IMG/VR virus record: IMGVR_UViG_3300008629_000005
Coordinates: 1-58,087 of that record
DNA length: 58,087 nt
Source of the DNA: a virus
Strand: one strand, 5' to 3'
Part shown: one piece after another, positions 38,091 to 48,698 of the stretch
How positions within the stretch are numbered: the stretch's first letter is position 1
How the letters are laid out: the number at the start of each line of letters is the position of its first letter
Notes under the pieces: model-generated
Told to the model about the DNA's origin: nothing
The model's database searches: none
The model's input: only the letters and a program-made list of their open reading frames with translations
Made by a program: the position numbers and the translations under genes

Positions 38091-38384
38091 ATGGATATAT
38101 TAACATTTTTGAGTGAAGTGGGCATTCCTATAGGAAGTGCAGTGATTATGGCCTTCTTTATATTCCTGACTTTGAAGTATATTTTAGAGTCAGTGGTAGG
38201 ACAAGTAAAAGGATTGGCTGGTATTATGGAATCTTTAGAGAATCGTGTTCGAATGATGAACAATGATATGATTAAGATTGACTTATTGGTTTCTTCGGCT
38301 TTAGATTTAAAGCCAGACATTGATAGAATTGCTCGTGCAGAGAATTTTATAGAAGATGAGAAGATAGATTCTCGTAGGGACTAA
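38091..38384 (+). CDS. Membrane/coiled-coil protein A of the curli-like operon
   Basis: 97 residues. Hydrophobic segment about 12-32 (GSAVIMAFFIFLTLKYIL), then a helical coiled-coil region with RVRMMNNDMIKIDLL near 63. It is paralogous to the next gene: both have TM segment, 25-residue linker, R-RM--ND-I--- core. First gene of the operon with its start at the predicted late +1. The form resembles BhlA/holin-type small proteins; it may aid export or lysis. Stop/start overlap of one base with the next gene. Confidence 0.7.
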   Translation: MDILTFLSEVGIPIGSAVIMAFFIFLTLKYILESVVGQVKGLAGIMESLENRVRMMNNDMIKIDLLVSSALDLKPDIDRIARAENFIEDEKIDSRRD

Positions 38385-38662
38385 TGAATACCATAGCTCA
38401 GATGATTGCAGAATTCGGTTTTCCCGTGGTTCTCGCACTGGGCATGGGGTATTTTATATTTTTTGTGTGGAAATTTGTCACACAAGAACTAAAACCTGCT
38501 CTAGGAAAATCTAATACAATCCTTATAAGACTTCTTGACCAAATTAGAATGTTAGATAACGACTTGATTCGTTTACAGCAGAAGGTTAACACAGTGCTAG
38601 AATATAAGGAACAGCAAGAACAAGAGGAAAAGAATGTCAGTAATAAAAAAAGTCGTAAGTAG
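38384..38662 (+). CDS. Membrane/coiled-coil protein B, paralogue of A
   Basis: 92 residues. Membrane segment about 13-33 (VVLALGMGYFIFFVWKFV) followed by QIRMLDNDLIRLQQKV, closely parallel to the preceding gene, and a Lys/Glu-rich tail. Overlaps the CsgF-like gene by 29 bp. The duplicated pair suggests a heteromeric membrane assembly serving the downstream secretion genes, or a lysis pair; inference only. Confidence 0.7.
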   Translation: MNTIAQMIAEFGFPVVLALGMGYFIFFVWKFVTQELKPALGKSNTILIRLLDQIRMLDNDLIRLQQKVNTVLEYKEQQEQEEKNVSNKKSRK

Positions 38663-39170
38663 CATTATCATTGTAGGGGTTTTATTTCTACATGCAACGA
38701 ATGTTTACGCAGATGAGATTGTTCATAAATTTGGAAATCCATCGTTTAGTAAACAGGGTCAGGGTGCTCATTATTTAACTATCGAGAATCAGGAATTTTC
38801 TCGGAAGAAACAAATCGAAGATGCTTTGGAGTCAGCTAGGAAAGCTGCAGAAAGAGAAGCAGACAATACGGTTCTTGCAAAATTTATTAGAAACTTAGAA
38901 AGCAGAATTTATGCTACACTTGCAAAACAGTTAGTTGAATCTATGTTCTCAAATGATAATTCAAGTTCATTTGGTTCATTTATTCTAGAAGGAAACACTA
39001 TTACTTGGGAAGTATTAACAGATGAAGCAGGGGTTGAGTTCATACGAATGACCATTATAGGTGAAGACGGAACATCAACCATTATTGAAATACCTATAGG
39101 AACTGGTAATTTTGCACAAGACCCTGACGCGATTCCTGTCGATGGCGGGGGTGGCGACGGAGGAACCTAA
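38634..39170 (+). CDS. csgF: CsgF-like curli assembly protein
   Basis: 178 residues with a Sec signal peptide ending at VYA|DE. Mature N-terminus VHKFGNPSFSKQGQGAHYL resembles the CsgF start (F-NPSFGG-----LL), which in E. coli inserts into the CsgG pore; the central helix (AKQLVESMF region) and the beta-rich end (WEVLTDEAGVEFIRMTI, then GTSTIIEIP) correspond to the rest of CsgF. Longer than E. coli CsgF (138 aa), with a charged helical insertion at about 45-85 and a Gly-rich tail. Immediately followed by CsgG, as in curli operons. GAGGAAA precedes the ATG. Confidence 0.8.
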   Translation: MSVIKKVVSSIIIVGVLFLHATNVYADEIVHKFGNPSFSKQGQGAHYLTIENQEFSRKKQIEDALESARKAAEREADNTVLAKFIRNLESRIYATLAKQLVESMFSNDNSSSFGSFILEGNTITWEVLTDEAGVEFIRMTIIGEDGTSTIIEIPIGTGNFAQDPDAIPVDGGGGDGGT

Positions 39171-40099
39171 TGATTAAGGTTCTTTCATTAGCATTACTTT
39201 TAGTATTGAGTAGCTGTGCTTCAATTCCTAAGTGGACAGACGACCCACAAAATTGTGGTCGCTGGGACGAAGGGTTTAAGAAAGATGTATACACTGGGGT
39301 AAAGAAACAGTTTGCACGAAAATATATTTGTGTGGAAGACCCCGAAGTAGTAAGACTACCCTCATTTCTTGAACTATTAAGATTACCACCAGCAGAAGAG
39401 ATGCCAGTAGTTGCAGTTTATCAGTTCTTAGATAAGACTGGACAGAGGAAGTCCGTAGACAACATTGCAAGCTTCTCTACTGCAGTGACCCAAGGTGGAC
39501 AAGAAATGGTCATAGACGCTCTTAAAACGGCTGGAAATGGTACTTGGTTTAGGGTAGTAGAACGAAGTGGTATAGACCACTTAGTTAGAGAAAGGCAGAT
39601 TATTAGGTCTGCAAGAACAGAATTTGCTAAGGCTGAAGGTAAAGACGAAGCCGAAGGAATACAACCACTACTCTTTGCGGGTATGATAATAGAGGGTGGA
39701 GTAATTGGTTATGATACCAATATAAGAACAGGTGGACGAGGCGCACGGACACTAGGTATTGGTTATAGTAAACGATATCGTCAAGATGTCGTGACCATTT
39801 CAATAAGAGCTGTATCAGTTCTTACTGGAGAGGTTTTATTAAATGTCCAAACTCGAAAGACTATATTGAGTTATGGAACGGGAGGCGATGTTTTCCGTTT
39901 CGTAGAACAAGGAACTCAATTAATAGAGATAGAGGATGGCATTGGAAATAATGAGTCAGTGACTTACGCAGTGCGAACAGCTATTGAAGCTGGAGTGCTG
40001 GAATTAGTATACCAAGGACACGAAAGAGGTTTTTGGAACATAACGGGGTATGACGAAAAGTTCCCCGAGGGGTATAACGAAAATGAAGAAACTAATTAG
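39170..40099 (+). CDS. csgG: CsgG-like curli secretion channel lipoprotein
   Basis: 309 residues (E. coli: 277). Lipobox LSSC with Cys16. Matching stretches to CsgG include PVVAVYQFLDKTGQRK near 84, FSTAVTQGGQEMVIDALK, WFRVVERSGIDHLVRERQII, the transmembrane-hairpin regions GVIGYDTNIRTGGRGARTLG and VVTISIRAVSVLTGEVLL, then TRKTILSYGTGGDVFRF and a C-terminal GVLELVYQGHERGFW. It would form the nonameric outer-membrane pore for curlin export. Stop of CsgF-like gene overlaps its start. The N-terminal insertion (about 20-75) is extra. Confidence 0.95.
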   Translation: MIKVLSLALLLVLSSCASIPKWTDDPQNCGRWDEGFKKDVYTGVKKQFARKYICVEDPEVVRLPSFLELLRLPPAEEMPVVAVYQFLDKTGQRKSVDNIASFSTAVTQGGQEMVIDALKTAGNGTWFRVVERSGIDHLVRERQIIRSARTEFAKAEGKDEAEGIQPLLFAGMIIEGGVIGYDTNIRTGGRGARTLGIGYSKRYRQDVVTISIRAVSVLTGEVLLNVQTRKTILSYGTGGDVFRFVEQGTQLIEIEDGIGNNESVTYAVRTAIEAGVLELVYQGHERGFWNITGYDEKFPEGYNENEETN

Positions 40100-40829
40100 T
40101 TTATTAGGAGCAATATTATTATTGGCTTCGCCTATCGTTTTCGGAGCAGCCACTGATGACAATGAAATTAAGATTACCCAAACGGGTGATACATTAAAAA
40201 TATACATTGACCAAATAGGTTTTGGTAATAAGATAGGTGGTAACGATGGTTCCAGCGGAAGCATAACCGCCATGCTTATTACAGGACAAACTTTGGAGTT
40301 CGATTTAGACTTTACTGGTAATCAGAATGTCTTATTCGGGCCCGTTGTTGCAGACAGTTCGAAATATACATTAACCTTCACAGGTGATTCGAACAAGATA
40401 GACTGGAACATTGGTAATGTAGGGTCAGCAGATGCTACTGATTATCTTTTCACTGTTCAAGGAGATTCAAACATCTTTGACATTGACCAAGGATATGGTT
40501 TAGGAGCAGAAAGATTAAATGCAGATTTAGTCTTAGTGGGTTCTTCGAATGTATTTGATTTGGATTTTGAATCCGATGATGTTGTTTGGAACTGGGATAT
40601 AACTGGTGACTCAAATAATGTTAATACATTACAGAAAGATGGTGCAAACGAAATGACGGTTGAATTAACAGGAGATAGTGCAGATGTGGATATCAATCAG
40701 ATATCAGGAACATGTGTAAGTGGAGCTGGAAACAGTTGTGCAACTCCAAATGCTTTAATTACATTAGATATAACAAGTGATAATGCAGTTATTCAAATCA
40801 ATCAGAAAGACGCAGCTAACGATTCTTAA
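40083..40829 (+). CDS. Curlin-like secreted repeat protein 1
   Basis: 248 residues. Signal peptide ending around FGA|AT, then about eight imperfect 22-28 residue repeats built around [TQ]GDSN-[IV]-[IV]-Q, for example ITQTGDTLKIYIDQ, TGDSNKIDW, QGDSNIFDIDQ, TGDSADVDINQ. The Gly/Asn/Gln spacing imitates CsgA/CsgB curlin repeats (Q-G--N-A---Q), but Asp replaces much of the Ser/Ala. One Cys pair near the end. Start at 40083 lies 17 bp within CsgG. Likely substrate of the CsgG-like pore forming an amyloid-type beta solenoid. Confidence 0.75.
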   Translation: MKKLISLLGAILLLASPIVFGAATDDNEIKITQTGDTLKIYIDQIGFGNKIGGNDGSSGSITAMLITGQTLEFDLDFTGNQNVLFGPVVADSSKYTLTFTGDSNKIDWNIGNVGSADATDYLFTVQGDSNIFDIDQGYGLGAERLNADLVLVGSSNVFDLDFESDDVVWNWDITGDSNNVNTLQKDGANEMTVELTGDSADVDINQISGTCVSGAGNSCATPNALITLDITSDNAVIQINQKDAANDS

Positions 40830-41925
40830 TATATTGTTATTCAGTGGGGTCGCATTTGCAGACCCCATTGGAGACATTGTTGAGTCTACTGGTATAGGCC
40901 AGATAGTTAGAAACAATGAAGTGCAACAGAATAATGTCGGTGGTGACATTTTTTTGTATGACGAAGCCGAAACAGTAAACGGCAGAATGAAGATTGAGTT
41001 CTTAGACGAAGAGGAACTTGATTTAATCGAACACACAGTAGTATACATAGACGAAGTATACTATGACCCTAATCCCTCATTATCAAAAATGTCCTTGAGA
41101 ATGGTTCAAGGAACAGCAAGGTTTGCTTCAGGGAAAGGGAAAAAAATAAAGAAAGCAAACATAGATATTTCAACGCCGACAGCTCAAATAGCAATCAACG
41201 GCACAGATTTTACAACTACTATTGACGAGCTCGGGAGAACACTCGTGATTCTGCTACCTGATGAAACAGGTGGTTCTAGTGGTGAGATAAAAGTATTTAA
41301 TGAGGGTGGAGAAACCTTACTCAATCTTCCATATCAGGCAACTATGGTTTCTACTTTGGAATCTCCTCCAACACAAAATGTTATTATTCAAAACATAACA
41401 CCTTCAATGATTGATAACATGTTTATTGTTTCTCCACCTGCGGAAGTTAAACAAGCAATAGAAGACGCTGTCGCTGACGACCAAAATGACGATACTGGAA
41501 TACTAGATGTAGACTTTTTAGAGTTCAATGATTTAGAGTCAGACGAACTCGAAGATACCATGGAAGATGATTTCACTGAGCTTGATATAGATATGCTTGG
41601 AGTTGACTTCTTGACAGATTTATTAGATGTGGTAGAAGCACTAGATAAAAAGATTAAAGGGTCAGGCTCAACTGGTGGTGGAGCAACCCTAGGACAATTC
41701 AATATTAAAGGTGCAGTCCAAGGATTCAATAAAGACTCACAGTTTAATGTATTTGTCCAAGACGGAGACCTATATCTCTATAGAGATGTGAATGGAAAGA
41801 TTGAGATAATCATTGCAGCTGGAGGTTTAGGATACTTAGATTTAACTTTAGACGGGTATGAAGGGATTATTGATTTCGGTCAAGGAGACACCAATATTGA
41901 AATTGTAATCAGGCAAACTAACTAA
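40783..41925 (+). CDS. FecR-domain secreted protein with curlin-like C-terminus
   Basis: 380 residues. Signal peptide ending VAFA|DP, then a FecR-type domain: MVQGTARFASGKGKKIKKANI, ISTPTAQIAINGTDFTTTID (the xIRGTxF-type strand) and LVILLPDETGG. The middle (about 225-285) is acidic; the C-terminus GFNKDSQFNVFVQDGDL and QGDTNIEIVIRQ looks like curlin repeats. FecR-domain proteins often occur beside CHASE2 cyclases in bacteria, and such a cyclase ends this operon. Overlaps curlin-like 1 by 47 bp. Probably a periplasmic or surface sensor/anchor. Confidence 0.78.
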   Translation: MQLFKSIRKTQLTILNILLFSGVAFADPIGDIVESTGIGQIVRNNEVQQNNVGGDIFLYDEAETVNGRMKIEFLDEEELDLIEHTVVYIDEVYYDPNPSLSKMSLRMVQGTARFASGKGKKIKKANIDISTPTAQIAINGTDFTTTIDELGRTLVILLPDETGGSSGEIKVFNEGGETLLNLPYQATMVSTLESPPTQNVIIQNITPSMIDNMFIVSPPAEVKQAIEDAVADDQNDDTGILDVDFLEFNDLESDELEDTMEDDFTELDIDMLGVDFLTDLLDVVEALDKKIKGSGSTGGGATLGQFNIKGAVQGFNKDSQFNVFVQDGDLYLYRDVNGKIEIIIAAGGLGYLDLTLDGYEGIIDFGQGDTNIEIVIRQTN

Positions 41926-41947: not shown

Positions 41948-42097
41948 ATGAAATATTTAAAGGACTTTTTAGAATGGCACGAAAGACTTTGTTGGAAGTT
42001 TATCGATAGATTCAACCTTACAGATTACCAAGCACTTTGGATAGCATGGGCTGAAGGTGTAATTCTTGTTTTACTTGTTTGGTGGATTTGTGGGTGA
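41948..42097 (+). CDS. Small membrane protein, 49 aa
   Basis: TTAGGAG seven bases before ATG. Sequence is aromatic and basic at first (WHERLCWKFIDRF) and ends with one membrane segment (AEGVILVLLVWWICG). Its TGA overlaps the GTG start of the next gene (GTGA), suggesting coupled translation with curlin-like 2. No family recognised. Confidence 0.65.
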   Translation: MKYLKDFLEWHERLCWKFIDRFNLTDYQALWIAWAEGVILVLLVWWICG

Positions 42098-42954
42098 AAC
42101 AAACTGAGGGAAAATTGGACTGGTCAGCAAAATTATTCATAGGGTGTTTTACACTCATGGTGTTATTTTCAGCAATTAAAGCATTTGCTGATGATGATAA
42201 CCGTATCAATATTAATCAGGTCACAGCGGGTGGAGATAATCTCGACCTAACTATCGACCAAGAAGGATTCAACAACAATATCTTTTTCTCACTTGGAGAC
42301 GGAGACGATTACGATATAGAAATCTTACAAAAAGGAAACAATAATGAAATTGGATACGCAAATGATTCCCCCAGCTGGGGCTCAGGTTATGGTTGGGGTG
42401 GCGATATTGACGGAGAAAGACAATCACTTAAACTCTACCAAAACTGCACGAAAAATTCGTCCTGCGGTAAAAACGACATTCAGTTCCACATAGCATATGG
42501 AGATGACAATACACTTTGGTGGGCCCAAGGATATGAATTCTCAAACCGTAACGACACTACATGGTCAATAGATAATAATGACGGCGGTAATCATACTGTC
42601 ACCATAGATATCCATGGTAGTGATAATTCAATAAAAGGACAGCAAAGGAATTGTGCAAACAATAATTGTGACGGACATTCAGCAAGAATCTATCTCTATG
42701 GAGATGACAATGATGTGTTTGGAAAACAGAAAGGAGACAGTTCAAAGACATTAAACTTAACAGTTCATAATGACTCTAATATTGTTGACTATCTTCAAGA
42801 CGGTAATGCTCAACATACTGCAAATATTACTTTGAATGGTACTTATGGAACTACTTTAGATTTAACGCAACACGCAGGCTCAGCTCAGTCATATACTTTG
42901 TCTCAAGCTTGTTATACAGTCGGCGGTTGCACAATTACAGTAACACAAGATTAA
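42094..42954 (+). CDS. Curlin-like secreted repeat protein 2
   Basis: 286 residues from the GTG at 42094 that overlaps the previous stop; an in-frame TTG at 42079 is less likely. N-terminal membrane/signal segment (LFIGCFTLMVLFSAI) ending AFA|DD, then Asn/Asp/Gly-rich repeats such as INQVTAGGDNLDLTIDQ, ILQKGNNNEIGYA, YGDDNTLWW, HGSDNSIKGQQ and YGDDNDVFGKQ. Curlin-like Q-G--N spacing is clearer here than in protein 1, with four Cys pairs or so. Two curlin-type subunits recall CsgA/CsgB (major fibre and nucleator). Confidence 0.78.
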   Translation: MKQTEGKLDWSAKLFIGCFTLMVLFSAIKAFADDDNRININQVTAGGDNLDLTIDQEGFNNNIFFSLGDGDDYDIEILQKGNNNEIGYANDSPSWGSGYGWGGDIDGERQSLKLYQNCTKNSSCGKNDIQFHIAYGDDNTLWWAQGYEFSNRNDTTWSIDNNDGGNHTVTIDIHGSDNSIKGQQRNCANNNCDGHSARIYLYGDDNDVFGKQKGDSSKTLNLTVHNDSNIVDYLQDGNAQHTANITLNGTYGTTLDLTQHAGSAQSYTLSQACYTVGGCTITVTQD

Positions 42955-42957
42955 ATT

Positions 42958-43065
42958 ATGTGGGATAAAATAATAAATTATAAATTTCATATCAAATGGG
43001 TTTTTATAGTATTAGGAACCTTATTGGTTGGATTAGCACTGTCGTTTTATCGACTGGTCTCCTAA
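42958..43065 (+). CDS. Tiny membrane protein, 35 aa
   Basis: Starts three bases after the curlin-like 2 stop. Basic N-terminus (YKFHIKW) and one membrane segment (VFIVLGTLLVGLALSFY). TAATG overlap with the next gene supports that it is translated. Too short to classify. Confidence 0.5.
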   Translation: MWDKIINYKFHIKWVFIVLGTLLVGLALSFYRLVS

Positions 43066-43229
43066 TGAAACAATGGTTGTTTAATAAGATGGTTCCGCAC
43101 GCCATCAGGTTCAGGGAATGGTCTAAAGGAAAAACTTGGATACAGATTCCCTTATGGATTTTTATATTGTGGCTTTTAGGAGTAGCTAATCCTTACTGGT
43201 GTGTATATCCAGTTTGTTGGATAACATAA
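43065..43229 (+). CDS. Small membrane protein, 54 aa
   Basis: ATG at 43065 overlaps the preceding stop; its own stop overlaps the cyclase start (TAATG again). Basic N-terminal half (NKMVPHAIRFREWSKGK) and one hydrophobic segment rich in Trp with two Cys (IPLWIFILWLLGVANPYWC). May be a partner of the cyclase or exporter. Confidence 0.55.
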   Translation: MKQWLFNKMVPHAIRFREWSKGKTWIQIPLWIFILWLLGVANPYWCVYPVCWIT

Positions 43230-45106
43230 TGTACTCGTGGAAGACAGTATTAATAACTGTCTCGTTATTATTCGGACTTAAGGTATGGAATCCATATCTT
43301 ATTGAGAATGTTACATGGTCTTGGTTTGACTTCCTACACCAATCAAAAGAAATAGAACAAACCGATAACATAGTTCTAGTAGACATAGACGAGAAGTCAC
43401 TACAGAAGTATGGTCAATACCCATGGCCGAGAAATATCTATGCAGATATAATGTTGGAATCACATTATACCAACACTCATGTATTTACCCAGTTGTTTAA
43501 AAACCCTGATAGGTTTTCAGGGGACGAAGCTTTTGCAGAAGGATTAGTTAATCGGCTATCGATTTTATCAGCTGCACCCACAACTCAATTAGATACTGGG
43601 TCTGCACCATTTGTTAAGACTTCGGTGTTCGGTGACGGCGAGATAAAAGACCATATTTGGAGCTTCTCTGGCATTGCTTCACCAGTTGATATCCTGAAAC
43701 AGAATTCGTATGGTTCAGGAGTGACAGTCACAACACCTAGTATTTCAGGAACACCAAACTTTGACGGGACAATCCGTTCAGCACCATTAATAGTATCTGC
43801 AAATGATGTTGTATATCCTTCGGTTGCACTAGAGGTTCTTCGTGCATTTGGTGACCATAAGAATTATCAAACACGAGTCACGGAAGAAGCTGGAATCGAG
43901 TGGATTCGAATGGGTAGGAGCCCTCCCATAGAAACAACCTCAACTGCAGATGTTCAAATTGGATACTGGTTCGATTTTGAGAGAATATCTGCAATGGATT
44001 TACCCAACTCAGACCTTGAAGGTAAGATACTGATTTGGGGATTAACTGCAGAGGGACTTAATAATCCAGTTTCAACCCCAGTGGGTGTAATGTATCCTCA
44101 TAAAGTTCAAGCCTCACTTCTCCAAACCGTTTTGCAAGATGTTCGAATACAACAATCCTACTATCTTGAATTCTTATCTCTCGCTCTTCTGCTGACAGTC
44201 CTTCTAGGAATATTGGTAATGGTCTACACACTTCCCACAGCCGTTGCGGGGATAGCTTCTCTAGTCTTCGTTGGATTTCAGGTGGGTGGGTCTCTCTATT
44301 GGTGGTCTTCATCTCTCGTTCTTTTCGATACTTTCTACTCATCGATTGCCTCCATTATAGTTTTCGGACATGCTTCCTTCAACAAATACTATACAACTTA
44401 TCAACTCAAAGAACTTATTAAGAAGCAGTTTCAAAAATATTTATCTCCTGACATGGTTGAAGAACTCCAAAAAAACCCTGAATTATTGAAACTTGGTGGA
44501 GATAGAAGAGAACTTTCATTCCTCTTCGCAGACATAGTTGGGTTCACTCCAATATCAGAAGCATACATGAAGAATGACGACCCCGAAGGATTAGTGGAAC
44601 TAATTAATAGATTCCTAGACGGTATGTCTAAAATTGTCCTAGCAAATGGTGGAACCATCGACAAATATATGGGTGACTGCTTGATGGCATTTTGGGGAGC
44701 TCCTCTTGATTGCCCTGACCATGCACAAATGGCTTTGAAATCTGCAATAGAAATAGAACTATTAACAGAACAAATGAATATAGATATAGAAAGGGAAGGA
44801 TTAGATTTACCACCAGTAGTCATTGGCACGGGAATTAATACAGGCCCATGCATTGTCGGAAACATGGGAAGTGAAGCACGATTCGATTATTCAGTTGTCG
44901 GTGACGCTGTTAACCTTGCAGCTAGACTCGAAGTCCAAACAAGGCAATATGACACTCCAATTATAATGTCAGAGTTCACAAAGAAACAAGTTGATTGTGA
45001 ATGGCAGTATCTTGACGAAATAAATGTTAAAGGAAAGGAAATTCCAGTTAAGATATATGCACCTTTAATTGATAGGAAATTAAGAAAATTACAAAAACCC
45101 TCTTGA
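43229..45106 (+). CDS. CHASE2-domain class III adenylate cyclase
   Basis: 625 residues, complete. N-terminal membrane helix, then a periplasmic CHASE2 sensor domain (about 25-305; NIVLVDIDEKSLQKYGQYPWPR is typical), three membrane helices (about 310-395) and a C-terminal cyclase domain. Catalytic residues intact: metal Asp435 (FADIVGFT) and Asp483 (KYMGDC), adenine-selective Lys479 and Asp559 (VVGDAVNLAARLE), transition-state Asn562 and Arg566. Predicted to make cAMP in the host cytoplasm in response to an envelope signal. Unusual in a phage. Starts within the previous stop. Confidence 0.93.
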   Translation: MYSWKTVLITVSLLFGLKVWNPYLIENVTWSWFDFLHQSKEIEQTDNIVLVDIDEKSLQKYGQYPWPRNIYADIMLESHYTNTHVFTQLFKNPDRFSGDEAFAEGLVNRLSILSAAPTTQLDTGSAPFVKTSVFGDGEIKDHIWSFSGIASPVDILKQNSYGSGVTVTTPSISGTPNFDGTIRSAPLIVSANDVVYPSVALEVLRAFGDHKNYQTRVTEEAGIEWIRMGRSPPIETTSTADVQIGYWFDFERISAMDLPNSDLEGKILIWGLTAEGLNNPVSTPVGVMYPHKVQASLLQTVLQDVRIQQSYYLEFLSLALLLTVLLGILVMVYTLPTAVAGIASLVFVGFQVGGSLYWWSSSLVLFDTFYSSIASIIVFGHASFNKYYTTYQLKELIKKQFQKYLSPDMVEELQKNPELLKLGGDRRELSFLFADIVGFTPISEAYMKNDDPEGLVELINRFLDGMSKIVLANGGTIDKYMGDCLMAFWGAPLDCPDHAQMALKSAIEIELLTEQMNIDIEREGLDLPPVVIGTGINTGPCIVGNMGSEARFDYSVVGDAVNLAARLEVQTRQYDTPIIMSEFTKKQVDCEWQYLDEINVKGKEIPVKIYAPLIDRKLRKLQKPS

Positions 45107-45213: not shown

Positions 45214-45624
45214 ATGACGCATTTAGATATATTTGGTCAATTCAGACCGTTCGCAATAGGATTTGATAGATATTTCGAAGACCTCGAAAGAATGTCTACA
45301 ATCTCACAATCAAACTATCCACCATACAATGTGGTAAAAGTAGACGATGAAAATTTCACCGTTGAACTTGCTGTTGCTGGATTCGATAAGAAGGAAATTT
45401 CTGTTACTAAAGAGAAAAACATTCTTGTTATCGAGGGTAGTTCAGAAGATTCTGAGAAGGACTTTGTCCATAAAGGATTAGCTTCTAGAGCATTCAACCG
45501 TAGATTTACACTTGCAGACGATGTAGAAATCGCCAGTGCAGTGTATAAAAACGGTATATTGAGTGTCAACTTAGAGAGAGTCATTCCCGAAGAAGACAAA
45601 CCAGTTTCTATCAAAATTTCATAG
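45214..45624 (+). CDS. hsp20: Small heat-shock protein (Hsp20)
   Basis: 136 residues. Alpha-crystallin domain: YNVVKVDDENFTVELAVAGF near residue 38, KNILVIEGSSED, ASRAFNRRFTLADDVEIASA and the signature YKNGILSVNLER near 109, ending with a KPVSIKI tail. ATP-independent chaperone, common in marine T4-like phages and probably useful in capsid or scaffold folding. Dual early and late promoters and a strong AAAGGAG site suggest high expression. Confidence 0.94.
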   Translation: MTHLDIFGQFRPFAIGFDRYFEDLERMSTISQSNYPPYNVVKVDDENFTVELAVAGFDKKEISVTKEKNILVIEGSSEDSEKDFVHKGLASRAFNRRFTLADDVEIASAVYKNGILSVNLERVIPEEDKPVSIKIS

Positions 45625-45638
45625 AAACCCACTATACA

Positions 45639-45671
45639 GATACCACTGTTATGTGATATAATGGTGGTATC
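45639..45671 (+). promoter_or_regulatory. Inverted repeat flanking a -10 box, possible operator
   Basis: GATACCAC (45639-45646) and GTGGTATC (45664-45671) are perfect inverted arms around TATAAT at 45657-45662. The loop is 17 nt. May be an operator or RNA hairpin regulating the gene at 45691 and ahpC-like gene. Confidence 0.45.
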
Positions 45672-45690
45672 ATTTTATTATGGAGTAATT

Positions 45691-45885
45691 ATGAAAAAAG
45701 AAGAGGGCATACAAGAGTGTGCAAAAAATGACAGAGTCGCAATAGAAGCAGACCTAAACAAATATCTTAATGATTTGACAGATAGAGAAATGATTAAGTT
45801 ATGTAATACTATAGCAAGTCAAGGTGGGACTAGAACACTCTCCACTTACGATTATAGTTGGAATCCTTTAAGGGAGATGTTATGA
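45691..45885 (+). CDS. Unknown small protein, 64 aa
   Basis: The ATG at 45691 with TGGAG upstream is preferred to an in-frame ATG at 45661, which lies inside the promoter/operator. Charged helical protein (DRVAIEADLNKYLNDLTDREM) with a YDYSWNPLREML end. Its TGA overlaps the peroxiredoxin start (ATGA), so the two are co-translated. No family recognised. Confidence 0.65.
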   Translation: MKKEEGIQECAKNDRVAIEADLNKYLNDLTDREMIKLCNTIASQGGTRTLSTYDYSWNPLREML

Positions 45886-46391
45886 AAACAGTAGGTGAAC
45901 AATTCCCCGACTTCTCATTAGAGGGGATTAATAAGTTTAATGAATTTGTGACAGCAGACAATGACTGGCTTCAAGGTTGGTCAGTGGTTTACTTTTATCC
46001 AAAAGACTTTACTTTTATCTGTCCAACAGAGATTGCTGGATTTGATGCATTGGTAGACGCGGGTGTATCAGTTATCGGTATCAGTGGTGATAACGAGTTT
46101 TGTAAATTAGCATGGAAACAAGATAATGAGTTGATAGGTAATATTCAACATACGCTTGCAGCTGACACTGGACTTAGATTATCAAGCGACCTTGGTGTGG
46201 TAGATATAGAAAATGGTGTATGCTATAGAGCAACATTTATTATCGACCCTGATGGAGTAATCCAACATGCATCAAGCAATGCATTAGACACTGGTAGAAA
46301 CCCACAAGAAGTTCTAAGAACTGTAAGGGCACTACAAGCTGGTGGACTAACTGGTTGTGCATGGAACGAAGGCGAGGACTTCGTTGGATAG
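45882..46391 (+). CDS. Peroxiredoxin (AhpC/typical 2-Cys type)
   Basis: 169 residues. Peroxidatic Cys47 in YPKDFTFICPTEIAGFD with the TxxC pattern, and a C-terminal Cys159 (LTGCAWNEGEDF) in the place of the resolving Cys. RATFIIDPDGVIQHAS matches the strand after the active site. Reduces hydrogen peroxide or organic peroxides; in a phage it may protect against oxidative burst during infection. No AhpF-like partner is visible, so host thioredoxin or glutathione would be the reductant. Confidence 0.92.
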   Translation: MKTVGEQFPDFSLEGINKFNEFVTADNDWLQGWSVVYFYPKDFTFICPTEIAGFDALVDAGVSVIGISGDNEFCKLAWKQDNELIGNIQHTLAADTGLRLSSDLGVVDIENGVCYRATFIIDPDGVIQHASSNALDTGRNPQEVLRTVRALQAGGLTGCAWNEGEDFVG

Positions 46392-46450: not shown

Positions 46451-47692
46451 ATGAACGAATATTTTAGATATAGATTATCAGACCTTGAAGAAGGTGCTTC
46501 AACAAAGAAGTTTAATTATATAACTTTCTTTGCTGGCGGAGGCGGTTCTTCATGTGCATACAAACTCTTAGGTGGAGATTGTAAATACATGAATGAATTT
46601 CAACAACTTCATGTTGATACCTACCTTTTAAATTTCCCAAACACAGTTCACGAATGTAAAGACATTAAAAAAGTTACTGGTAAAGATATCATGGAACTTA
46701 GTGGACTAGGAGTTGGTGAAATAGATATTCTAGATGCAAGTCCACCTTGTCCGCCATTTTCAATGGCTGGATCAAAACGAGAAGGTTGGAACAAAGAGAA
46801 GATTGCATATGGAATGAAGCAAGAAAACATTGAAGATTTAACTTGGGAAGTAATTAGAATTACTGGTGAACTCCAACCCAAGATTGTTATTTGTGAAAAT
46901 GTAAAAGGTCTTACAATGGACTATGCAAGAGACCATTTGAATAGAATGATTACAGACTTTGAAGCACAAGGATATTCTGCAGTTTATAAAGTTATGAATG
47001 CAGCCCAACATGGAGTTCCACAAAAAAGAGAAAGAACATTTATACTTGCAGTTCGTAATGATGTATTAGATAAAATTGGAATGCCATGGATGGTTTTAGG
47101 AAGTGTATTTCCTGAACCTTCTCAAAAAGAATGGACTGTAAGAGATGCAATAGAAGACTTACAAGATGACGAACAAAACATAACCGATGCAAAATACCTA
47201 GAAGAATCTTTGAGACATTCTTCAAAGGCTCATTGGGTATTTGGATTTGATACTCACCCTGACTATCCCAACTCGGGCCCATGCTTAGGTATGAGGGGCA
47301 TAAATAATATGGAAAGGGTTGTTAGTATTGGAGACGATATCGTTGGCCCGTGGTTCAAAGAACAAATTGCAAGGGGTATCATTGACCCCGAAGATGAAAA
47401 ACATTCTTATTACATGTCAAGGATTGTACCTTGGACTCAAGCTGCACATTCATTAACTGAACAAGGGTGTCAACCAAAGTTTATGGGTGGTAATCATTTT
47501 CACCCCAGTGGAGAAAGGATATATACTCCAAAGGAATTACAAAGGATTATGACTCTTCCCGATGACTATAGGAGTACGGGAGATTATAACGACAAGGGTG
47601 CAAGAATAGGATTAATGGTCGCACCACTTTGTCTTAAGGCATTAGTTGAAAGTGTCTTAGAAAATATTTTGGAGAAGTATAATGTCAATTAG
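46451..47692 (+). CDS. DNA cytosine-C5 methyltransferase
   Basis: 413 residues with intact motifs: FAGGGGSSCAYK (I, near 27), DILDASPPCPPFSMAG (IV, catalytic Cys100), VICENVKG (VI, ENV near 149), GVPQKRERTFILAV (VIII, QxRxR), and the C-terminal RLMTLPDDY-like LQRIMTLPDDYR with a GLMVAP region (IX-X). Makes 5-methylcytosine in DNA. No restriction enzyme gene adjoins. The next gene, 11 bp overlapping, encodes a TET/JBP-like dioxygenase, suggesting further oxidation of the methyl group. Confidence 0.93.
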   Translation: MNEYFRYRLSDLEEGASTKKFNYITFFAGGGGSSCAYKLLGGDCKYMNEFQQLHVDTYLLNFPNTVHECKDIKKVTGKDIMELSGLGVGEIDILDASPPCPPFSMAGSKREGWNKEKIAYGMKQENIEDLTWEVIRITGELQPKIVICENVKGLTMDYARDHLNRMITDFEAQGYSAVYKVMNAAQHGVPQKRERTFILAVRNDVLDKIGMPWMVLGSVFPEPSQKEWTVRDAIEDLQDDEQNITDAKYLEESLRHSSKAHWVFGFDTHPDYPNSGPCLGMRGINNMERVVSIGDDIVGPWFKEQIARGIIDPEDEKHSYYMSRIVPWTQAAHSLTEQGCQPKFMGGNHFHPSGERIYTPKELQRIMTLPDDYRSTGDYNDKGARIGLMVAPLCLKALVESVLENILEKYNVN

Positions 47693-48698
47693 AACACACA
47701 CACCAACAGTTGACCATGGTTTTAAAGAAACTATGGAGAAGTATAACGGTCAGTGGTTAGACGGAAGTGAAGTCACAGACCTAGTATCTACCGTGGGAAC
47801 AGACCACGAGTTAACCAAGATTTATAAACCAGTATCTACACTTGGAGAGGAACCACCTCTACTTGCATGTATTGTTAAAGGCGTATACGAAGGTGAGAAG
47901 TTAGAAGAATTAAGGTCAACAGTTCAATCTATTGAAGATGTATCTACACTTCGTGCAAATGCAGCTGGCCCTATTGATAAAGATGAAATGGCAAAGAAAG
48001 GTATGATAGAGGGAGTTCATTATAAATTAAGAACTGCAAACTCATACTATCCACTAAAGAAAAATGGTGAGTTCAATCGAATTGCAGAAGCAAACCCTAT
48101 TCATTCTATTTTTATGGGACATAAGAGAGGAAGATTTACGGGAATGATTGGTTTAAGTGGTTGGGCAAAACTAAAAAGAAACCAAGAGAAGTGGGAAAGC
48201 ATGCAAGAGATAGCAGTTCTAAATGAACAAGCATTAAAAATAGGGGCCCCCGAAGTTTGGAAAAAACAAAGAGATTTTTGTGATGAGTGTGTTGAAGAAA
48301 AATACTGGTTGCAAGGAGCTCCGTTCACTTCTATATCTGCAAACAAATATTCATATGTTGAAGGTGCTGGAAAAATGTCTGCACATATTGACGGTGACGA
48401 TTTAGATTTTGGAATGACAACAATGTGTGTATTTCGTTGTGGAGATTTTGAAGGTGCATATCTATCATTCCCAAGATATGGAATTGGTATCGATGCAGAT
48501 GATGGTGATGTTATTATTGCAGATTCAAATGAATTGCATGGTGTGACTCAAATTAAAGGTGAAGGTGTCAGACATACATGTGTTGCATATTGTGGAAGTG
48601 ATGTTGCAACAAAAGGTGTAAGAGGTAAAACAGAGAATCCTATCGGACACCATCATAGAGACAAACATGGTAGCTTAGATAGTTTCTTAGGAGACTAA
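47682..48698 (+). CDS. TET/JBP-like 2OG-Fe(II) dioxygenase
   Basis: 338 residues. The C-terminal half has the TET/JBP-type core: ANKYSYVEGAGKMSAHIDGD with His235 and Asp237, a GAYLSFPRYGIGIDADDGDV strand pair, ADSNELHGVTQ with distal His286, and GVRHTCVAYC with Arg297 for 2-oxoglutarate. The N-terminal 200 residues are helical and family-specific. Adjacent to a C5-methyltransferase with overlapping ends, so the likely substrate is phage 5mC, giving 5-hydroxymethylcytosine. Enzyme class is well supported; the DNA substrate is inferred from context. Confidence 0.8.
   Translation: MSIRTHTPTVDHGFKETMEKYNGQWLDGSEVTDLVSTVGTDHELTKIYKPVSTLGEEPPLLACIVKGVYEGEKLEELRSTVQSIEDVSTLRANAAGPIDKDEMAKKGMIEGVHYKLRTANSYYPLKKNGEFNRIAEANPIHSIFMGHKRGRFTGMIGLSGWAKLKRNQEKWESMQEIAVLNEQALKIGAPEVWKKQRDFCDECVEEKYWLQGAPFTSISANKYSYVEGAGKMSAHIDGDDLDFGMTTMCVFRCGDFEGAYLSFPRYGIGIDADDGDVIIADSNELHGVTQIKGEGVRHTCVAYCGSDVATKGVRGKTENPIGHHHRDKHGSLDSFLGD

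Follow-up and report, generated by a model that had tools for sequence, protein, structure and literature searches.

The window analysed here is a 58,087-nucleotide stretch of DNA, positions 1–58,087 of the virus record IMGVR_UViG_3300008629_000005, and all coordinates count from its start. The window is from a genuine T4-like marine phage. The contig encodes T4-type terminase, portal, tail sheath, scaffold and capsid proteins, together with T4-type replication proteins (DNA polymerase, clamp, clamp loader and helicase). The capsid protein is closest to that of Melnitz (67.5% identity), followed by those of HTVC008M (65%) and Mosig (64.4%), which places the phage near the pelagimyophages and methylophages.

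A run of curli (amyloid-fibre) genes occupies the plus strand upstream of the gene at the centre of this study. Two small membrane proteins of 97 and 92 amino acids (38091–38384 and 38384–38662; both PHROG 18771) are followed by CsgF, the curli anchoring and assembly protein (38634–39170; Pfam CsgF, 2.4e-10), CsgG, the outer-membrane curli pore (39170–40099; Pfam CsgG, 1.3e-50), a curlin-repeat fibre protein (40050–40829; Pfam Curlin_rpt, 1e-5), a FecR-domain protein (40777–41925; Pfam FecR, 1.2e-7), a second curlin-repeat fibre protein (42079–42954; Pfam Curlin_rpt, 3.3e-4) and a small membrane protein of 77 amino acids (42996–43229). This last gene overlaps the start of the next (TAATG), which encodes a CHASE2-domain class III adenylyl cyclase of 625 amino acids (43229–45106). 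The 77-residue protein has homologues at 15 of 83 loci and no match in Pfam or PHROG. Wherever contigs are long enough, the order of the two small membrane proteins, CsgF, CsgG, curlin, FecR, curlin, cyclase and Hsp20 is kept.

The core of this order, from CsgF through CsgG, curlin, FecR and curlin to the cyclase, is that of the pelagiphage curli module and is found in the window gene by gene with Pfam. CsgF and CsgG have been reported in such marine T4-like phages (PMC7029224; PMC9004378), and FecR, both curlins and an adenylate cyclase are described in PMC9599517 as members of a pelagiphage type VIII secretion module. The window differs from the module as presented there in that Hsp20 follows the cyclase and in the genes that precede csgF. 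Whereas that text reports a histidine kinase at this position, the two genes found here encode proteins of only 92–97 amino acids in which neither Pfam nor NCBIfam detects a histidine-kinase domain. One of these two proteins weakly matches Rz-like spanins, and the pair is present in relatives too.

The cyclase reading frame runs from an ATG at 43229, or possibly from an earlier GTG at 43199, to 45106. It contains a CHASE2 domain (Pfam E = 2e-28, 100.1 bits against a cut-off of 26.3; residues 24–339 of the GTG-start form) and a Guanylate_cyc domain (E = 5.7e-18, 65.6 bits against a cut-off of 21.9). An AlphaFold model (mean pLDDT 84) consists of an N-terminal helix, a periplasmic alpha/beta domain, three membrane helices and the cyclase domain, the helices spanning residues 4–20, 311–334, 337–362 and 369–401, and Foldseek matches this model to CyaB, CyaC and Cya2 with TM-scores of 0.8–0.87 (normalised by target length), the cyclase domain being the part that resembles CyaB and CyaC. 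Pfam and the model agree on the layout of a CHASE2 receptor, in which the CHASE2 domain is flanked by an N-terminal membrane helix and by later membrane helices. A first-pass annotation of this DNA had proposed a complete CHASE2 class III cyclase on phage DNA, with a periplasmic sensor and membrane helices; the domain matches, the modelled layout and the T4-type genes on the contig bear out both proposals.

Alignment to CyaC and CyaB recovers the complete class III residue set, numbered here from the ATG at 43229: Asp435, Asp483, Lys479, Ser555, Asn562 and Arg566. The first-pass annotation had listed Asp559 as catalytic in place of Ser555. All six residues that it named are found at the numbers it gave, and five of them (Asp435, Lys479, Asp483, Asn562 and Arg566) align with catalytic positions of the solved cyclases CyaB, CyaC and Cya2, but the column of Asp559 holds Pro in CyaC, Arg in CyaB and Ala in Cya2, and Asp559 is therefore not a catalytic residue. 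Adenine is selected at Ser555, a position occupied by Thr in CyaC and CyaB and by Gly in the guanylyl cyclase Cya2. Based on established cyclase biochemistry, the combination of Lys479 and Ser555 predicts ATP as the substrate. Asp435, Lys479 and Asp483 are invariant across all 82 phage homologues, and Asn562, Arg566 and Ser555 are identical in all but 1–3 rows of the 82, most of these being gaps. The exception is the Melnitz cyclase (L083:7983-10034), in which Ser555 is replaced by Asp and Asn562 by Ser, substitutions that may alter its activity. The window enzyme, judged from its sequence, is apparently a working, cAMP-making cyclase.

The first-pass annotation also considered a phage enzyme that makes cAMP to be unusual, a view that comparison with other phages does not support. 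HTVC008M and Melnitz both carry this cyclase, with the genes in the same order, and their records already annotate it (the window protein shares 39.6% identity with HTVC008M gp019 and 33% with Melnitz gp104); relatives occur on hundreds of IMG/VR contigs. The cyclase is not new, since it belongs to the module published for pelagiphages (PMC9599517); it is confirmed, and it is ordinary within that module. Our tree groups the phage cyclases in a single viral clade (SH-aLRT 100), which sits on a long stem. Phylogeny had been suggested as a means to locate the donor lineage, but the tree offers no well-placed bacterial sister, and it neither confirms nor contradicts the alphaproteobacterial origin that has been published. 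Among the 80 closest bacterial cyclases, the best is about 36% identical.

The cyclase gene itself is a mosaic (window 43229–45106 compared with L003–L029 and L014/L021). Its CHASE2 part is near one phage group (dN 0.10–0.15) and its cyclase part near another (dN 0.05–0.12), with dN of 0.30–0.39 for the reverse pairings. The pattern looks as if phages swap sensor and enzyme domains.

The genomic neighbourhoods of bacterial and phage cyclases differ. A FecR gene often lies within 10 kb of the 80 closest bacterial CHASE2 cyclases, whereas csgG lies within 10 kb of none of them (0/80), and the phage copies form their separate clade beside curli genes. Conversely, neither FecR nor a cyclase is found within 10 kb of six true csgFG operons of Alphaproteobacteria, a small sample. 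A ready-made bacterial curli operon with FecR and cyclase was considered as a source and is absent from these six operons and from the 80 closest cyclase loci. Judged from these loci, a curli operon and a FecR/CHASE2-cyclase pair seem to have been joined in the phage module. That reading agrees with PMC9599517, which states that the histidine kinase, FecR and cyclase are absent from bacterial T8SS operons. Because the curli fibre genes and the FecR-domain gene adjoin the cyclase, an envelope-linked signal is a sensible guess. There is a precedent for envelope sensing of this kind: the S. meliloti cyclases CyaD1, CyaD2 and CyaK likewise combine a periplasmic CHASE2 domain, membrane helices and a class III cyclase domain, and in that species CHASE2 cyclases mediate the action of the outer-membrane protein NsrA (PMC13001267).

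The most novel part of the locus, which the first-pass annotation did not mention, lies on the other strand of the cyclase gene. An open reading frame for 94 amino acids (MSRKYRKEREMKTT...) occupies 44058–44342 on the minus strand, antisense to cyclase codons 276–371 and opposite the end of the CHASE2 domain and the membrane-helix region. The frame is open over 93–112 codons, with its ATG at the same place, in 80 of 80 close relatives. A Shine-Dalgarno sequence, GGAGG (44349–44353, minus strand), stands 6 nt before this ATG and is found near the antisense start in 75 of the 82 sequences examined. The Ala codon of the cyclase at this site is GCC in 71 of 80 sequences, a codon that accounts for only 28 of the 997 used for Ala in the remainder of the gene, and its use here is forced by the antisense GGAGG. 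Further upstream of the antisense gene is a motif resembling T4-type late promoters, ATAAATA (44438–44444, minus strand), which is kept in 80 of 80 relatives against an expectation from codon usage of about 24%. The sequence NATAAATA is the late promoter of T4-like cyanophages (PMC2984593), and in the window phage 12 of the 22 plus-strand copies of ATAAATA are located no more than 80 nt upstream of gene starts, where 1.8 would be expected. The features that define an overlapping antisense gene, namely a conserved open frame, start codon and ribosome-binding site beyond what the sense protein constrains, are all found here.

The first sign of this second gene came from measuring selection domain by domain, which showed far too little synonymous divergence in the membrane-helix region of the cyclase. 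A codon-conservation scan of 80 phage cyclases places the anomaly at residues 286–375, where the ratio of observed to expected codon identity is 1.8–2.6, compared with about 1.2–1.6 outside it. The rate of sense-synonymous change is 0.097 in the overlap and 0.22 and 0.21 in the flanks, a drop of more than 2-fold. Distances at the three codon positions are flat within the overlap (0.225/0.155/0.241) and steep in the flanks (0.273/0.158/0.521 and 0.21/0.13/0.452). Over codons 278–371, the 80 sequences together contain four stops in the antisense frame, all of them natural ends, whereas the two remaining antisense frames contain 579 and 613. When codons are redrawn for the same amino acids, the 93 codons stay open in 0.1–1.5% of draws per sequence, and under neutral drift from the window sequence the frame remains open in 0.04–5% of cases for close relatives and 0.06–1.6% for distant carriers, although these per-sequence probabilities are not independent of one another, as the sequences are related. 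Seven further genes from the module and its neighbourhood served as a control; their longest shared antisense run is 10–52 codons, compared with 93 in the cyclase gene.

Natural negatives point in the same direction. In L398, L399, L402 and L403, whose cyclases are about 65% identical overall, the reading frame is absent, and the corresponding segment has 33–35% GC and 8–10 stops in the antisense frame; the carriers set beside them have 40–44% GC and an open frame. The reading frame is also absent from HTVC008M, from most HTVC008M-like cyclases and from Melnitz, whereas the clade of the window has it. The carriers comprise the 80 close relatives, which include 24 that are distinct at less than 85% protein identity, and five more distant cyclases (39–49% identical overall) that contain a homologous antisense reading frame (E about 1e-20), some with other starts. 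Some of the antisense similarity in these five comes from homology of the sense strand, which does not explain their open frames. From these comparisons we conclude that the antisense reading frame is most plausibly a real overlapping protein gene, and the evolutionary pattern indicates selection on its protein product across a large clade of marine T4-like phages.

Could the synonymous conservation of cyclase codons 280–375 reflect an RNA structure, a DNA element or a codon constraint of the helices, with the open frame as a by-product? The hydrophobic helices do have a skewed composition, and segments rich in leucine and valine can bias the opposite strand. However, relatives that have the same helices and lack the reading frame are AT-rich and filled with stops there, recoding with the same amino acids seldom keeps the frame open, only one antisense frame is open where each of the other two has about 600 stops, and the antisense strand has kept its ATG, GGAGG and late-promoter motif. 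RNA structure in particular is rejected as the cause, as both strands fold more weakly than shuffled sequences (z about +2). We regard this explanation as very improbable. Scarcely more credible, in our estimation, is that the minus-strand element is mainly a cis-antisense RNA that lowers cyclase expression, with the reading frame secondary. The late-promoter motif is directed against the cyclase, and CfrI of the T4-like cyanophage S-PM2 is a known antisense RNA (PMC2984593), but an RNA needs no stop-free frame, start codon and Shine-Dalgarno sequence kept across 80 phages, and the rates follow the pattern of a second coding frame.

A rival of a different kind concerns the cyclase, which might no longer signal by cAMP and might instead serve the curli machinery as a membrane or structural component, or act as a consumer of ATP. 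The Melnitz enzyme, with Ser at the expected catalytic Asn, is in keeping with this idea, as is the distribution of cAMP receptors. A phage-encoded receptor was sought with Pfam cNMP_binding, which has no match in seven records (the window, four relatives of 106–153 kb, HTVC008M and Melnitz). On the host side, we surveyed 58 genomes of a SAR11-type order, centred on a genome whose 16S rRNA has an exact match to a SAR11 probe. None of the 58 has a class III cyclase or a Crp-type HTH above the cut-off. A cNMP domain occurs in four, and in the single case examined it belongs to a large fusion protein and not to a CRP-type regulator. If the host is a SAR11 bacterium, the enterobacterial cAMP-CRP-CsgD route cannot simply apply, because a CRP-type cAMP receptor is absent, and the published puzzle of phage curli is sharpened, as a cAMP-making enzyme would be delivered to hosts without such a receptor. 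The host of this contig may not be SAR11, however; in Methylophilaceae, the family of the Melnitz host, all 60 of the genomes sampled have cNMP-binding matches. The catalytic residues are, moreover, otherwise invariant across strongly diverged phages, and we consider a non-signalling cyclase unlikely, if less so than either alternative for the antisense strand. That the cyclase is bacterial sequence brought into the contig by misassembly or chance fusion is refuted by both phylogeny and synteny. Bacterial CHASE2 cyclases are common, and the first-pass annotation had looked to phylogeny to expose contamination, but the phage cyclases fall into their one well-supported clade within a conserved phage module that occurs in dozens of contigs and in the isolates HTVC008M and Melnitz, T4-type core genes accompany the window gene, and its sequence is found again in a 106-kb contig.

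We therefore favour a locus with two coding layers, a CHASE2 cyclase predicted to make cAMP and an antisense protein gene with its own start signals, probably expressed late; on the sequence evidence we hold this reading to be highly probable. We propose that the CHASE2 domain, on the periplasmic side, most likely responds to the condition of the envelope or of the adjacent curli and FecR proteins and would switch a dimeric cytoplasmic cyclase that converts ATP to cAMP. The antisense gene would be transcribed late, and its small helical product would probably be made late in infection. It is also possible that late antisense transcription damps the cyclase. The fuller version of this idea, in which the antisense element is a true late gene and its transcription, its product or both also turn the cyclase off, is one that we put forward tentatively, as it is somewhat less likely to be right than wrong. 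If that fuller version holds, the two genes would be a sense-antisense pair, with a single stretch of DNA specifying the membrane anchor of a sensor that makes cAMP as well as another phage protein.

The predicted antisense product has 93–112 amino acids, with a charged N-terminus (M-x-R/K-R/K-Y-R-K-E-R) and a conserved core (S-P-x-x-L-W-E, ...S-R-I-x-V-F-E-x-L, ...D-T-L-x-P-L-x-L-x-L-D). Its model is small and all-helical (pLDDT 71; 74–85 in the core) and has no significant fold match, and no homologue is found in Pfam, PHROGs, the PDB or phage records. A separate scan that started from the antisense protein recovered it inside cyclase genes in 80 of 80 cases and never outside them; a match in W02 (E = 8e-4), considered as a free-standing homologue, was discarded because of its five internal stops. 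A protein that lacks family and fold matches and never occurs outside the cyclase gene fits an origin by overprinting, in which a gene is born within an older gene. For the history after this origin, losses and spread by recombination both stand as readings. As to function, we can offer, with low confidence, the guess that the product is a small late helical regulator or a host-interaction protein.

To our knowledge, long and fully embedded antisense protein genes have rarely been established in prokaryotes or phages, most claims come from expression with weak evidence of selection, and annotation pipelines disallow such genes. The antisense gene described here is absent from the annotations, families and papers searched and appears to be new, and comparison supports it well as a candidate coding gene. 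The evidence of selection is broad, covering carriers, natural negatives and conserved start signals in abundant marine phages. In E. coli O157:H7, antisense overlapping genes (PMC9927249; reviewed in PMC7457138) are likewise embedded and have their own start signals, but those cases rest on expression data, whereas ours rests on comparison of diverged phages. CfrI of cyanophage S-PM2 (PMC2984593) involves antisense transcription beside an auxiliary gene of a marine T4-like phage; CfrI is described as an RNA, whereas the antisense strand in the window, where transcription is predicted, has a conserved coding frame.

Within 45214–46391, downstream of the cyclase, Hsp20 comes next in almost every relative, and the peroxiredoxin gene at 45858–46391 is present only in some. 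Beyond these, at 46451–48698, a C5-cytosine DNA methylase gene is followed by a gene for a TET/JBP-family 2-oxoglutarate oxygenase, suggesting that the phage DNA contains modified cytosines.
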